Source: Acidobacteriota bacterium (GTDB lineage Bacteria; Acidobacteriota; Terriglobia; Acidiferrales; UBA7541). Taken from it: DNA of 32,681 nucleotides. Positions 2,600 through 30,423 of the stretch are shown here, one piece after another. The DNA is taken from contig QHYL01000261.1 in NCBI GenBank assembly GCA_003224105.1, positions 1-32,681 on the forward strand, read 5' to 3'. The notes under the pieces were generated by a model. That model ran no database searches, was not told where the DNA came from, and was given only the letters and a program-made list of their open reading frames with translations. Positions within the stretch are counted from its first letter, which is position 1; each line of letters opens with the position of its first letter. Both the position numbers and the translations under genes were made by a program.

Positions 2600-2630
2600 T
2601 AGGGTCTTTACCCTAGAAGCTAATAGGGTA
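2600..2630. promoter_or_regulatory. Inverted-repeat array TAGGGT-cttt-ACCCTA-gaagctaa-TAGGGTA in the leader of the receiver-like/subtilase pair
   Basis: TAGGGT 2600-2605, TACCCTA 2609-2615, TAGGGTA 2624-2630; the last two form a perfect 7-bp inverted repeat with an 8-nt spacer. Lies 131 nt upstream of ATG 2761. Confidence 0.5.
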
Positions 2631-2760
2631 TCCCCGGAATTGTTCTAACTACTGTTAATTCCTACACTTTGCCTAGCTACGTCAGCGCACGGGTAGAGAA
2701 TCATGAGTACAGGAACCAGCCCCTGTTTCCCATGTGTAGCGGTAGGGGTAGCCCGTCCGT

Positions 2761-3615
2761 ATGCAGCCCAAGGTGTTAATTATTTGCGAGCGTGCAGCGG
2801 AACGAGACACCATTCGTGTACTCGTTGGGACGATGGGGTGTCAGTGGATTCTTGCCTCGGGGATTCAGGAGGCCTTGACTCTGCTTGGACGAGAACGAAC
2901 TTCCGCGGCCTTGCTCGAACTACCGGGCGCAATCTCCGACCCTGCCAAGTTGGAACAAGGTGTACGGGAGCTTCTGGTGCGCTTTCCGGGACGGGTTATC
3001 GTTTTGACGGATGGAGCACCGGGTCCTCTGACCAATGAGTTGATCTCCAAATATTCCATTCCTTCCGTGCAACGCGATCGATTGGCCGTGGATCTCTGGC
3101 CGCGTCTGGAGTCCATGGTTTATCCGCAACTCGGAAGCCGCCGCATCACCAGAGTGGCTCGCCTCGTCCTGGACACCTTCTTGCAACCCTTGCCTGCAGG
3201 CATCCGGGTCCTGCAACCTGATACTCGCCAGTTAGTCTACGAGGCCCCGGCTCTGACCGCCGATATTTCCTTTGAACGGTCTCCCAATTGCCCCCGCATA
3301 ACTCTGTTGGGCCAAGTCCTGAGGACCAAAGAACCGCAGATTCCCCTGAACGGTGTTTCGGTCGTGCTCAAGAGCCGGAACGGCCCCCTCAATTTGAAGA
3401 TGACAAACGAGGTCGGCGAGTTTTCGTTTGAATTCCAGGATGAACGCGCCGTATCTCTCGAAATTGAAGTCAGCCCGAATGAATGGGTATTGCTGATTAC
3501 CCCTCCCCTGGACTGGGCTGGCAAAGCTAAGGATCAGGCGATGAGTGGATCTTGCATATCAAATGGTTTAACCAACGACACAAAGCTTCCTGGAAAAAAG
3601 GCAAGACTTGTATGA
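2761..3615 (+). CDS. Receiver-like (degenerate) protein with a C-terminal carboxypeptidase-regulatory/Ig-like beta-sandwich domain
   Basis: MQPKVLIICERAAERDTIRVLVG...SAALLELPGA...VIVLTDGAPG has receiver-like beta-alpha layout without the usual Asp at the end of beta3; C-terminal PLNGVSVVLKSRNGPLNLKMTNEVGEFSFEF...LEIEVSPNEWVLLITPPL. Confidence 0.6.
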   Translation: MQPKVLIICERAAERDTIRVLVGTMGCQWILASGIQEALTLLGRERTSAALLELPGAISDPAKLEQGVRELLVRFPGRVIVLTDGAPGPLTNELISKYSIPSVQRDRLAVDLWPRLESMVYPQLGSRRITRVARLVLDTFLQPLPAGIRVLQPDTRQLVYEAPALTADISFERSPNCPRITLLGQVLRTKEPQIPLNGVSVVLKSRNGPLNLKMTNEVGEFSFEFQDERAVSLEIEVSPNEWVLLITPPLDWAGKAKDQAMSGSCISNGLTNDTKLPGKKARLV

Positions 3616-5471
3616 GATTGCGATGGCTGTGGGTCCCATTGTTTGTTTTTGGTTTGTGCAGTAATCCGGCAAAAGCAGACAATCGTGTCATAGTTCGGAC
3701 CACGCTTGGCTTGCAGGGCCTTCAGGCCTTTTGCAATGCCCTTCCGTTGCTGCAAACCTGCACGGTAGTCGGAGGCCTGGACGGCGCACTCGGCCAGCTT
3801 TTCCTGATTACCACTCCGCTTGACCTTACCACTATCCTGAACCTGCTAGGCAGCACTGTGGGAATCGTAGATGCGGAAGCCGATCAGTTGCTGAATCTGG
3901 TCGGCGGCCAGAATCAAGTAACCACGCCTCCCGCAGGTCTGTCTGACACGACCCCAGTGAATTATTCCGGCTCAACCGTGTGGAATGGTTACGTAAGCCA
4001 GCCCGCGGCAAACATTGTGCGTGTGTCCGCAGCTCAAACCACGTTCAACGTCATGGGCAGGGGCATCGTCGCTGATATTGATACCGGTGTGGATCCCAAT
4101 CATCCCGCACTGAAACCAGTACTGTTGCCGGGCTACGACTTCACGCGCAATCAGCCTGGTGGTTCCGAGATGACGGACTACACGGGCGCGCCGCCACCAG
4201 CCAACACCACCAACGTCGCCACAGTGAACCAGTCCACCGCTGCCGTGCTCGATCAGTCCACTGCCGCCGTGTTGGATACGAATCCCCAATACTCTGCCTT
4301 CGGCCACGGCACTATGGTGATGGGAATTATTCATCTGGTCGCGCCGCAGGCACAGTTGCTCCCACTGAAGGCGTTCAGTTCAAATGGCAATGGGAACCTG
4401 TCCGATATCTTGCACGCCGTCTATTACGGTGTGCAGAGCGGCGCCAACGTCATCAACATGAGCTTCGACATGAAGTCGAATTCAGCGGAGTTCTCCAAAG
4501 CCATAACCTACGCCAACCAGAACGGCGTGATCTGCGCGGCTTCTGCTGGAAACGATGGAATGCAAGAGACAGTTTATCCCGCTGCATATCAGAATGCTGT
4601 AATGGGAGTGGCTTCCACCAGCGACACTGACACCCGGTCGTCTTTTTCCAATTATGGCGACGCCATCGTGTGGGTCGATGCGCCCGGCGAAGGCGTCGTC
4701 TCTACTTATCCCTTTAGCACTTATGCTGCAGGATGGGGCACTTCCTTCAGTGCCCCGTTTGTTTCCGGCGCTGGCGCTCTTCTGCTGAGTCTCGATCTAA
4801 CCACGAACGAGTCGAAGGCCGCAGCCGCTGTGGCGCACGCAATGCCAGTCGGCTCGGGGATGGGCAATGGACGGTTGGACCTAGTGCAGGCCTTGCAGTC
4901 GGTGGCGCCGGCAAGCGGAAACACCGCGGACTTCAGCACTTCGGTCAGTCCAAACACAGATACCATCAATGCGGGGCAGTCTGCCAACTTCACGGTTTCA
5001 ATCACGCCAAGCGGCGGCTTTAATCATGTGGTGACGTTTAGTTGCTCCGGCATGCCTACAGGAGCATCCTGCACTGTGGCGCCTTCTTCCGTTACGTTGG
5101 ATGGGACCAATCCGTCGAGTGCCAAGCTCGTTGTGATGACTACGCACCGTTCTGGTTTCTTTGTTTCGCCGCGATTTCGCATTGAGCCGAGGATCGGCCC
5201 TGGAAGTGTGGCAACGCTCCTCGCCTGTATTCTCTTTTGGGTTGGATTGATTAGCTCGCGCAAAGTCCTGCGATTCAGGCTGCCTCTTGTTCTGTCTTGC
5301 TCGGTGCTGTTCCTTGCCGCGCTTTGCACTTCTTGTGGCGGTGGAATCGTTACGCCCACTCCTGGCAAGGGGCCGCCTGGCGGAACTCCGGCTGGTAAAT
5401 ACGCCATCGTTGTCACAGGGACTTCAGGGAACGTAAGTCACGCCGCCTCTACCCAGCTCACGGTGAACTAA
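3612..5471 (+). CDS. S8 family (subtilisin-like) serine peptidase with C-terminal Ig-like domain and membrane segments
   Basis: Catalytic motifs GIVADIDTGVDPNHPAL (Asp), FGHGTMVMGIIH (His), GTSFSAPFVSGAGALL (Ser). ORF opens at 3552, but the signal peptide MRLRWLWVPLFVFGLCSNPAKA starts at 3612, overlapping the previous stop as ATGA. Confidence 0.93.
   Translation: MRLRWLWVPLFVFGLCSNPAKADNRVIVRTTLGLQGLQAFCNALPLLQTCTVVGGLDGALGQLFLITTPLDLTTILNLLGSTVGIVDAEADQLLNLVGGQNQVTTPPAGLSDTTPVNYSGSTVWNGYVSQPAANIVRVSAAQTTFNVMGRGIVADIDTGVDPNHPALKPVLLPGYDFTRNQPGGSEMTDYTGAPPPANTTNVATVNQSTAAVLDQSTAAVLDTNPQYSAFGHGTMVMGIIHLVAPQAQLLPLKAFSSNGNGNLSDILHAVYYGVQSGANVINMSFDMKSNSAEFSKAITYANQNGVICAASAGNDGMQETVYPAAYQNAVMGVASTSDTDTRSSFSNYGDAIVWVDAPGEGVVSTYPFSTYAAGWGTSFSAPFVSGAGALLLSLDLTTNESKAAAAVAHAMPVGSGMGNGRLDLVQALQSVAPASGNTADFSTSVSPNTDTINAGQSANFTVSITPSGGFNHVVTFSCSGMPTGASCTVAPSSVTLDGTNPSSAKLVVMTTHRSGFFVSPRFRIEPRIGPGSVATLLACILFWVGLISSRKVLRFRLPLVLSCSVLFLAALCTSCGGGIVTPTPGKGPPGGTPAGKYAIVVTGTSGNVSHAASTQLTVN
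4230..4277 (+). repeat. 24-nt tandem duplication encoding QSTAAVLD x2 within the subtilase
   Basis: cagtccaccgctgccgtgctcgat / cagtccactgccgccgtgttggat; directly precedes the catalytic His motif. Confidence 0.85.
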
Positions 5472-27125: not shown

Positions 27126-29720
27126 CTACAACCTCGGCGTCTCCAGCGCGACGATGCTGTCGCCGCCCTTCTTTCGCGCTTCCTCGATGGAAAACTCCGC
27201 GCGATTGATCAGATCGGTCACAATGTCTTCGCTGTCATAATCCGGCTTGGGGACGGCCTCCACAATCCCCGCGCTCAACGTAATTTGCGTGGAATCCCAC
27301 GGCGGGCGCAATCCGGACGCCGCGCGGCGCAGTTTGTCCGCCAGGTTCTCCGCTCCCGCCAAGGTCGTGTCCGGCAAAACAAACGCCAGCGACCACGCTG
27401 TGTATTTCACCGCCACATCGTTTTGCCGCACAATCGGCTGCAGCGCCCGCGCCAGTTGCTCCAGGAAGCGCTCCAGTGGCGGCTCGCCCTGCTGCCGCAA
27501 AATTTCACCCCCGCGGTCGATTTGCAGAACGGCCAGCGACAGCGGCGTCCCCTGCGACTTCGCGCGATCCGTCTCCGTCAACAGGCAACTCACGTACGAG
27601 CTGCGGCTCAGCAATCCCGAGCGTTCGTCCGACACGCCCATACGCCGCACCAGCGACCGCAGCCGCGTGTGGCTGACGCTCATCAGCATCTGGTCGCCAA
27701 TGGCCTGCAAGAAATAAACTTCATTCGGCTTCCACTTGTGACGTTCCGCTTGCGCGGCAATCAACATGCCCGCCGGTGACTGTGTCTCTTTGTCCAAAAT
27801 CATCACGCCAAGCGCCGTCTCGACTCCCAGGTCGCGCAGAATTGAGCCCTCCGACGCTTGCACCACCAGGCCGCCAAGCTCATCGGGTTTGGCTTTCTCC
27901 ATTTGCGCTAACAGTAGGACAACTTGCGCGCCTGGCGCGGCTTTCACGCCAGTTCCGCAAAATTCAGCGGCCATTTCCGGCGGCCGCCCCGGCGCGCCAA
28001 CCACGGCCAGCGCGCGCGTCGCGTGCAGATACGTCCCGACCTCGTTCACCGCGGTGTTGAGCATCGCTCGCGGCGTCTGCTGCCTAAAGATTTTCTGGTT
28101 GATCTCCGATATTTTCGATAGGTCACGCAGCGTATCCGCCGAATACACACCGGTTTTCCCGGTAATCGCCCCCGTTTGCGGTTCGGCAGTGGATGGCCCC
28201 GGCGCCGGCTCGCTTTTCGCCGCCGCTTCCGCTTTCGGTTTCTGCGCTCCCGGCGGCCACCAATTCGCGGTTTGATACAAACTCGACAGCCTCGCGTTAC
28301 GCGCCTCTTCGCCGGGAAACAGCGACGCAATTTTTTGCAGGCGCTCCAGCGCCTTACTCTGCAGCGAATACTGCAAAAAGATTTCCGTCTGCACAATCAA
28401 GTCTTCTAGTGCCTGCATCTGCCGCGCTTCTTCTGTGTTCGCCGGCGCAATCGATGACGCGGGCGCTCCCGTTCGCGGAGCGTGTCCGCCCGTGGCTTGC
28501 CCTGCTTTCATCATTCGGCTCGACAACCTGTTCACGTACGCGTCATCCACGCGCCCGCGGAGTCTTTCCATGCGCTCCTGGTTCCGGAAGTCATAGGGAT
28601 CAATGTCCACAAGCCGCTCGAGCGATTCCGCAGCCTTCTTGACGTTTCCCGAACTCAAATACACGTCGAACAGCTTGATCAACACTTCAAAGTACTGCGA
28701 TTCGCGGTTCAGCTCGTTGTGGATGCCGGCCCAAAATTCCAAAATGCTTTGCGAGTGGGGAAATTTCGCGCCCAACCCATCCATCATGGTCGCGAAATCG
28801 GTTTGCCGCTTGTCGGCGAACATCCTTCGCTTGAGCATTTCAAGAACGGACGACGCCCTTTGGTCCTGCCCTGCTGCGACGTGGCGCTCCGCCAGGTCGA
28901 AGAGTTGCGTCACGCCTTCATTCTTCTCGCGCAGCAGCTTTTGCAGCACTTCGCTGGCCTTTTCGAGTTGGCCCGCGCCCATGAGCGCTTCGGAATAGGT
29001 CATGAGGAATGGCGCGTCATTCTCCGTGGCCGCGAACGGCTCCAGAATCGAAACCGCGCGCACCGCGTTCCCGCTCTGTAAGTTCGCTTGGGCATAGAGC
29101 AGCGCCACGCTTCGCTCCTGCGGCGCAAGTTTTTGCGCGCGACCAAGAAGATTCAGCGCATCGGACGAGGAGCCTTTGGTAGTGGCTAATTGTCCCGCGC
29201 GAAGAAACGCACGCGCCGCCAGCGAAGCCTTGCCCAGGCGCTCGGCGCCTTCCGCCAGCCTGATCTGGCGGGCGAGGTTGTCCGGTTCGAGTTGCGCAAT
29301 GCGCTCCCAGCAAAACAGCGCGTCTTCGTCGCGTCCGGCCGCAACAAAAAGTTCTCCGGCCTTGTTGTATTGTTCAATCGCCTCGTCGGCGCGGTTTTGA
29401 CGCTGCTGGAGGAAAGCATACCGCGCCACTCGCTCGGGAGCCTGTTGCGCAGGAATGGAGCGGAGGAACCGGTTGTAGATGGCCAGCGCCTTGCTTTCGT
29501 CCTTCGGATCGACCAGCAAATCAAACAACATGCCGTAATACACGGCGGCGCGGTCCGCTTGATCAATGCGCGCGTACAAATCGCCTAACGCCTGCGTGGC
29601 TTCCTGGTGCTGCGGCGCTTCATCCAGCACCTCCAGGTACGCTTGAATGGCGTCCTCGACACGATTCTTCTCAAGGAAGCGCTTGGCACGCTCCAAATGT
29701 TTGTTGACGTCTGCGGCCAT
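27126..29720 (-). CDS. TPR - GAF-like - degenerate GGDEF-like multidomain protein
   Basis: N-terminal TPR units (VEDAIQAYLEVLDEAPQHQEATQALGDLYARIDQADRAAVYY); GAF-like segment (LRDLSKISEINQKIFRQQTPRAMLNTAVNEVGTYLHATRALAVVG); C-terminal GGDEF-like fold ending LINRAEFSIEEARKKGGDSIV. Start 29720 (MAADVNKHLERAKRFLE) preferred over 29999. Confidence 0.8.
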   Translation of the reverse strand: MAADVNKHLERAKRFLEKNRVEDAIQAYLEVLDEAPQHQEATQALGDLYARIDQADRAAVYYGMLFDLLVDPKDESKALAIYNRFLRSIPAQQAPERVARYAFLQQRQNRADEAIEQYNKAGELFVAAGRDEDALFCWERIAQLEPDNLARQIRLAEGAERLGKASLAARAFLRAGQLATTKGSSSDALNLLGRAQKLAPQERSVALLYAQANLQSGNAVRAVSILEPFAATENDAPFLMTYSEALMGAGQLEKASEVLQKLLREKNEGVTQLFDLAERHVAAGQDQRASSVLEMLKRRMFADKRQTDFATMMDGLGAKFPHSQSILEFWAGIHNELNRESQYFEVLIKLFDVYLSSGNVKKAAESLERLVDIDPYDFRNQERMERLRGRVDDAYVNRLSSRMMKAGQATGGHAPRTGAPASSIAPANTEEARQMQALEDLIVQTEIFLQYSLQSKALERLQKIASLFPGEEARNARLSSLYQTANWWPPGAQKPKAEAAAKSEPAPGPSTAEPQTGAITGKTGVYSADTLRDLSKISEINQKIFRQQTPRAMLNTAVNEVGTYLHATRALAVVGAPGRPPEMAAEFCGTGVKAAPGAQVVLLLAQMEKAKPDELGGLVVQASEGSILRDLGVETALGVMILDKETQSPAGMLIAAQAERHKWKPNEVYFLQAIGDQMLMSVSHTRLRSLVRRMGVSDERSGLLSRSSYVSCLLTETDRAKSQGTPLSLAVLQIDRGGEILRQQGEPPLERFLEQLARALQPIVRQNDVAVKYTAWSLAFVLPDTTLAGAENLADKLRRAASGLRPPWDSTQITLSAGIVEAVPKPDYDSEDIVTDLINRAEFSIEEARKKGGDSIVALETPRL

Positions 29721-29889
29721 CCGTTTGAACTGCCTTTGCAGGCTTGTTGTCGCTGAATTTGCCCCGGCCGCACGCCAAGAGAGGGGCGCGCGGTCATTTC
29801 CACTATACCCTGCGGGAGAAAGGCGGGCAAAACCTGCGTTCCAACGCCTTGCGGTAAACGCCAAGTGACCTGGGCGGCTGTGTTGGTAG

Positions 29890-30423
29890 TTATCGAACGC
29901 CGTTCTTCGGGTCCCAGGAGCCTTGCTCTTTACGCACGTAAATGATCTGCCCGATGTGATACGCGTTGTGTGTGCTGATGTGCGTAAAAACCTGTGCATT
30001 CTCCTTCAATTTCGCGTCGTCGGCGCCTTCTACCCATTTCTCCAGTTCGTTCATGACCTGATCGAGCTGCTGGACCGTTTCGTTCCAGGTCTTGGTATCG
30101 AACTTGTCGAAGGTCTCATCGTTGTCGCCGCTGAATTTGTCAGGCTTCTCGCCTTTCAGAACCTGTAAATTCCGGCGATTCCAGAACACCAGGTGGTACG
30201 CCAACTGGCCCACCGAGTGATTACCCTTGCCGTCAGTCCAGCTCGCCTGCTCCGCAGTTAAACCCTTCACCGCAATGTTCGCGGGCACAAACCACTCTTC
30301 TGCGCCATGCGTGGATTTCAATTCCGCCAGCACCACTTCTCGCAGCGTCGTCGGCTTTTTGTCCTGCGCATAAACGGGAATCGCCAACAACAAAAGCACA
30401 AAAACCACCACTTGTTTAATCAT
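29890..30423 (-). CDS. DinB-like (four-helix metal-binding) family protein with signal peptide
   Basis: MIKQVVVFVLLLLAIPVYAQ signal; SVGQLAYHLVFWNRRNLQVLKG and THISTHNAYHIGQIIYVRKEQGSW His motifs. Confidence 0.85.
   Translation of the reverse strand: MIKQVVVFVLLLLAIPVYAQDKKPTTLREVVLAELKSTHGAEEWFVPANIAVKGLTAEQASWTDGKGNHSVGQLAYHLVFWNRRNLQVLKGEKPDKFSGDNDETFDKFDTKTWNETVQQLDQVMNELEKWVEGADDAKLKENAQVFTHISTHNAYHIGQIIYVRKEQGSWDPKNGVR

Follow-up and report, generated by a model that had tools for sequence, protein, structure and literature searches.

According to a review, the conserved genes around sigma factors of the ECF54 group encode carboxypeptidase-like, subtilase and CHAT domains, and proteolytic control, without an anti-sigma factor, was proposed for the group (PMC8999054). 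In a different field, receivers lacking one or more of the five active-site residues are defined as pseudo-receivers, and those without the phospho-accepting aspartate as aspartate-less receivers or ALRs (PMC12632262). Glutamate is the commonest replacement of this aspartate, and ALRs were found to be abundant in Acidobacteria (PMC4395418, PMC12632262). The locus described here touches on both. The window, the whole stretch of 32,681 nucleotides that was analysed, belongs to a 5.1-Mb acidobacterial metagenome-assembled genome whose nearest named relatives are subdivision-2 (gp2) acidobacteria. It encodes a receiver-like protein of 284 aa (ORF 2761-3615, + strand, TGA stop at 3613-3615), followed by a subtilase with its Met at 3612 (+). 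Homologues of the first protein were divided into type A, with a receiver and a beta-domain, and type B, with a zinc finger and a beta-sandwich.

The type B operon, composed of genes for an ECF sigma factor, a TPR-CHAT protease, the zinc-finger and beta-sandwich protein, a subtilase of the same family and often a stand-alone HD-GYP protein, matches the ECF54 context of that source by gene content. The window pair shares with this context the subtilase and the beta-sandwich ("carboxypeptidase-like") partner, but it has neither a sigma nor a CHAT gene, and a pseudo-receiver stands in place of the zinc finger. ECF54 was described without an anti-sigma factor, whereas the type B beta-domain protein has an anti-sigma-like HxxxxCxxC motif. 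The best reading of these sequences is that the window pair branched off, within one lineage, from a sigma/CHAT/zinc-finger/subtilase operon that is widespread among acidobacteria. An earlier, sequence-only reading of the locus knew of no described system with this architecture. This still applies to the fusion of a receiver to the beta-sandwich, which appears undescribed (a literature search for a receiver-like protein/subtilase pair returned none), but not to the parental operon, given its match to the ECF54 context in PMC8999054.

Adjacency of the two genes and features of the subtilase

Among 95 genomes of the order, 15 encode type A proteins, often more than one. Fourteen of the 15 belong to the window's genus and one (G064) to a different genus of the same family. 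Outside the order, no receiver and beta-domain protein was found in approximately 400 genomes of the phylum. In 25 of the 26 type A loci the next gene downstream is a subtilase, intact or as a remnant, and the same four type A subgroups were recovered in the beta-domain tree and in the subtilase tree, indicating that the two genes diverged together. The pair is thus conserved and, as presented below, the first protein has a receiver fold, so both refutations foreseen in the sequence-only reading fail. Locus L060 contains the receiver protein without any downstream subtilase, and in L043 (5674-6170) an intact receiver protein is followed by subtilase fragments that no longer include the catalytic core; these losses suggest that the link between the two products may not be obligate.

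The overlap of the receiver-like ORF and the peptidase start as ATGA (3612-3615, +) was confirmed, and the start at 3612 is supported by its alignment with the conserved M-[RK]-x-[KR] signal-peptide start of the relatives. Among the 26 type A loci, the overlap was present only in five (the window, or W, L040, L041, L043 and L051), the remaining junctions being intergenic gaps of up to about 100 nt. Adjacency is therefore conserved and overlap is not, which leaves unsupported the earlier suggestion that the two proteins are made in a fixed ratio.

The second protein was identified as an S8 peptidase (Pfam PF00082, 2.5e-31). Its predicted signal peptide (residues 1-22, MRLRWLWVPLFVFGLCSNPAKA; 3612-3677, +) was read from the sequence and forms a hydrophobic helix in the structure model, which is of modest confidence (mean pLDDT 65); an equivalent peptide was found in nearly all relatives with an intact subtilase N-terminus. 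A prodomain of beta-alpha-beta-beta-alpha-beta order (residues 24-95; 3681-3896, +) with invariant Cys41 and Cys50 follows, and then the S8 catalytic domain (residues 150-430; 4059-4901, +), in which the triad Asp157, His232 and Ser378 and the oxyanion Asn314 are intact. With these residues, the signal peptide and the prodomain, the protein has the predicted make-up of an exported S8 zymogen. Its C-terminal "lipo-invert" tail (residues 503-619; 5118-5468, +) matched NCBIfam NF058595 above the curated cut-off (3.9e-20), with two predicted membrane helices (530-548 and 557-574 in the model). The earlier description of the second product as an S8 peptidase with a signal peptide, an exported membrane protease, agrees with these sequence and model predictions. 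Here NF058595 interrupts an Ig-like domain: an insertion of some 75 residues, which contains both membrane helices and the lipobox-like motif LCTSC, lies before the last beta-hairpin of that domain, and in the aligned L051 subtilase the Ig-like domain is uninterrupted, without the insertion. No paper on the NF058595 domain was found in the literature search. The prodomain and catalytic domain presented dN/dS values of 0.06-0.09. Asp157 is replaced by Asn or Gly in the subtilases of L051, L056 and L062, with His and Ser retained, and some of the partners may therefore be inactive (pseudo)proteases. A doubled motif, NQSTAAVLDQSTAAVLD, was observed within the catalytic domain (window 4230-4280, residues 207-223) and is kept in most relatives.

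A physical complex, with the receiver-like protein acting in the cytosol as a chaperone or export gate bound to the subtilase precursor, would be in line with the strict adjacency, the congruent subgroups of the two gene trees and the ATGA overlap in the window. Nevertheless, this explanation is considered unlikely. A Sec-type signal peptide and a prodomain are present in the subtilase, whereas inspection of the first protein revealed no signal peptide and no membrane helix; the two products are thus probably separated by the membrane, making direct contact unlikely. Moreover, two loci retain the first protein after loss of the subtilase, and the same subtilase family is also found beside zinc-finger versions that share only the beta-domain.

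Receiver and beta-sandwich domains of the first protein

The N-terminal pseudo-receiver domain (residues 1-124; 2761-3132, +; median dN/dS 0.13) gave no Pfam receiver match when the window protein was searched alone. Response_reg matches were obtained for 16 of 24 homologues (best 7.6e-8), and the family profile found receivers in the PDB, the best being 3crn (8.5e-6). The AF2 model (mean pLDDT 78) presented the (beta-alpha)5 order of a receiver followed by a beta-sandwich, and Foldseek searches with this model retrieved receivers at TM values of 0.75-0.79 by target length, including DivK and Thermotoga regulators (0.79). The receiver-like layout reported earlier is borne out by all four lines, and the fold check proposed for 2761-3615, by profile against the PDB and by AF2, returned a receiver fold. 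The top structural match by E-value was RssB, the receiver adaptor for sigma-S degradation, which likewise combines a receiver with a beta-rich second domain and has the theme of regulated proteolysis in common with the window pair. The second domain of RssB is PP2C-like. Homology to RssB was rejected, as the match is domain-wise only (global TM 0.33, rmsd ~16 A) and the second domains are unrelated, leaving an analogy at most.

The active-site residues were mapped by profile alignment to 3crn and then checked in 24 members. The window protein has Cys9/Glu10 at the DD pair, Glu53 at the phospho-Asp and Pro101 at the Lys, with Thr83 retained; relative to the receiver active site, these changes correspond to D12 to Cys, D57 to Glu and K109 to Pro, and they make canonical phosphorylation very unlikely. 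The earlier observation that the phospho-acceptor position after beta3 is not Asp was thus correct, the residue being Glu53. Glutamate can mimic the phosphorylated state in some receivers; for Glu53 such mimicry is uncertain because the Lys is lost. A phospho-regulated response regulator, still signalled by a histidine kinase, would be compatible with the receiver fold, with the Asp kept at the phospho-site in 17/17 relatives outside the window clade and with the Thr, which is mostly retained among the members. It is nonetheless highly improbable, as 24/24 members lack the Lys and the first of the two metal-binding Asp residues, the phospho-site is Glu in 7/7 members of the window clade, and a Pfam scan of the neighbours recognised no kinase beside the pair. 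In the sequence-only reading the protein was taken as a phosphorylation-independent partner of the co-produced protease. Its independence of phosphorylation is plausible, whereas "partner" is doubtful since the two products are predicted in different compartments.

Judged by the aligned residues, type A members are pseudo-receivers by the published definition (PMC12632262, PMC4395418), and the window clade is an aspartate-less receiver. The window protein resembles these proteins in having a receiver fold without active-site residues and Glu in place of the phospho-Asp, and differs from them in that the receiver is fused to the beta-sandwich of the sigma/CHAT/subtilase operon rather than to one of the usual output domains, such as a DNA-binding domain. 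This C-terminal beta-sandwich (residues 128-246; 3142-3498, +; median dN/dS 0.11) also occurs in the zinc-finger proteins of the operon. Its earlier description as "Ig/carboxypeptidase-regulatory-like" is valid for the fold class, a predicted beta-sandwich, but not for membership of the carboxypeptidase-regulatory Pfam family, since the Big_1 and CarbopepD_reg matches were all sub-threshold. The remaining tail, with the TGA stop (residues 247-284; 3499-3615, +), is weakly constrained (pLDDT <50, dN/dS 0.43). The dN/dS values of about 0.1 in both the receiver and the beta-domain indicate that the first protein is under purifying selection.

Promoter and expression of the pair

Two tandem operator-like boxes, AGGGTCTTTACCCTA (2601-2615) and AGGGTATCCCC (2625-2635), were found upstream of the first gene (2601-2635, +) and are conserved in the seven-member window clade and in other type A subgroups. 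The motif information was 14.3 bits compared with a shuffled maximum of 8.7. They are followed by a predicted sigma70-type promoter (2640-2668, +), with TTGTTC (2640-2645), a 17-bp spacer and TACACT (2663-2668). The combination TTGnnn and TAnnnT, at a spacing of 17-18 bp, occurs just downstream of the boxes in six of the seven window-clade members, and TTGACT-N17-TATnnn occurs in several other type A subgroups. Given the conserved boxes and promoter upstream of 2761, the two genes probably form a separate, regulated transcription unit. Across type A subgroups the arrangement of the window (2601-2668), with tandem AGGGTnTTTnCCC-type boxes immediately preceding a sigma70-type promoter, is conserved. 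A regulon defined by the boxes was rejected, as pattern searches of the window's own genome presented no excess over reversed-pattern controls; the other box matches checked in this genome were without the tandem arrangement. A conserved 5'-UTR hairpin before 2761 was also rejected, with folding z-scores from -2.1 to +1.5, mostly insignificant.

An own promoter with operator-like boxes, together with products predicted in different compartments, might equally describe a simple co-expressed pair, in which the boxes mark a regulon and the products do unrelated jobs. There is little probability in this explanation, given that adjacency was kept across the four subgroups and, in many families of the phylum, is also a feature of the parental operon. 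Similarly, a decaying paralogue, the remnant of a duplicated operon without present function, is hardly probable: several broken copies in the metagenome-assembled genomes (L043, L053, L059 and L063) and the catalytic Asp lost in three subtilases would point to it, but in the window clade dN/dS is about 0.1 for the receiver, the beta-domain and the subtilase domains alike, the catalytic residues of the window copy are intact and the promoter is conserved.

Parental operon and proposed role of the receiver swap

Many further matches to the first protein share residues 130-240 only and have a different N-domain, that of type B, in which His31, Cys36 and Cys39 are invariant and His6 is nearly invariant. 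The sole PDB match of this domain was RsiW, with a non-significant E of 0.65, and Pfam zf-HC2 gave no match. By its HxxxxCxxC motif, the domain resembles zinc-binding anti-sigma domains. It has in common with ZAS proteins, such as RsiW, the residues His6, His31, Cys36 and Cys39, the weak RsiW match and a position adjoining an ECF sigma gene; it differs from them in that no transmembrane segment was noticed in the type B family. The window protein is without a zinc domain altogether, the His-x(3-4)-Cys-x2-Cys domain present in its type B relatives being absent and the receiver standing in its place.

The sigma factors of the type B operon were assigned by NCBIfam to the sigma70-ECF superfamily only. 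The operon was found in other acidobacterial families, and among the 16 loci sampled outside the order a CHAT gene was nearby in 14, a subtilase in 14 and a sigma factor in 11. The window's own genome also holds a type B operon (contig C330, L039), and type B was present in 14 of the 15 type A genomes compared with 28 of the 80 others (Fisher p 3e-5, kinship ignored). No sigma or CHAT gene was found in the examined flanks of the 26 type A loci, with the exception of L064: there, the type A pair is followed on the same strand, after about 6 kb, by a type B operon. In the tree of the beta-domain alone, a single branch (94/77, 94% of bootstrap trees) separates 26/26 type A rows from the others, and a type B row from the same genus stands next to them. 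On this tree the zinc finger was replaced once by the receiver, with moderate support for a single swap.

That the offshoot pair provides a pseudo-receiver regulator acting in trans on the parental system, to which the subtilase is linked by co-expression, is given about an even chance of being right. The first protein would be a cytosolic regulator, whose receiver would serve for protein interaction independently of phosphorylation, perhaps with Glu holding it in an active-like state. The shared beta-sandwich would dock in trans on the partner of the parental anti-sigma-like protein, either the sigma factor or TPR-CHAT, and the docked protein would modulate it. The subtilase would be co-transcribed, exported, matured by removal of the prodomain and, in the window clade, membrane-anchored, its tie to the first protein being one of co-expression and not of direct contact. 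More tentatively, the receiver swap may have rewired the sigma/CHAT/subtilase module: in place of the zinc finger, a phosphorylation-independent receiver would provide an input that reaches the parental system in trans. The two versions offer a natural experiment on a poorly understood operon of ECF sigma, CHAT (caspase-like) protease and subtilase: the retained beta-sandwich and subtilase point to its core, and the swapped zinc finger and pseudo-receiver to its input. The locus would also be a case of a pseudo-receiver exchanged as a module beyond two-component signalling, and an anti-sigma-like zinc motif may have been overlooked in the "carboxypeptidase" partner of operons of this kind.

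Several variants of the type B operon were also observed. In L098 (2793-6620), TPR-CHAT and the zinc-finger/beta-domain protein share a single open frame of 1276 aa; such a naturally fused protein suggests that CHAT and the beta-domain are physical partners. In L072 (8074-9930), a second subtilase with a lipo-invert tail is located right after the HD-GYP gene; outside type A, no other subtilase scored closer to that of the window. L065 (G093:C122) has three tandem-neighbour copies of the zinc-finger and beta-domain gene within 7 kb, with more on other contigs of this genome. Elsewhere in the window, 27126-29999 encodes a TPR protein of 957 aa with a terminal GGDEF (diguanylate cyclase) domain.
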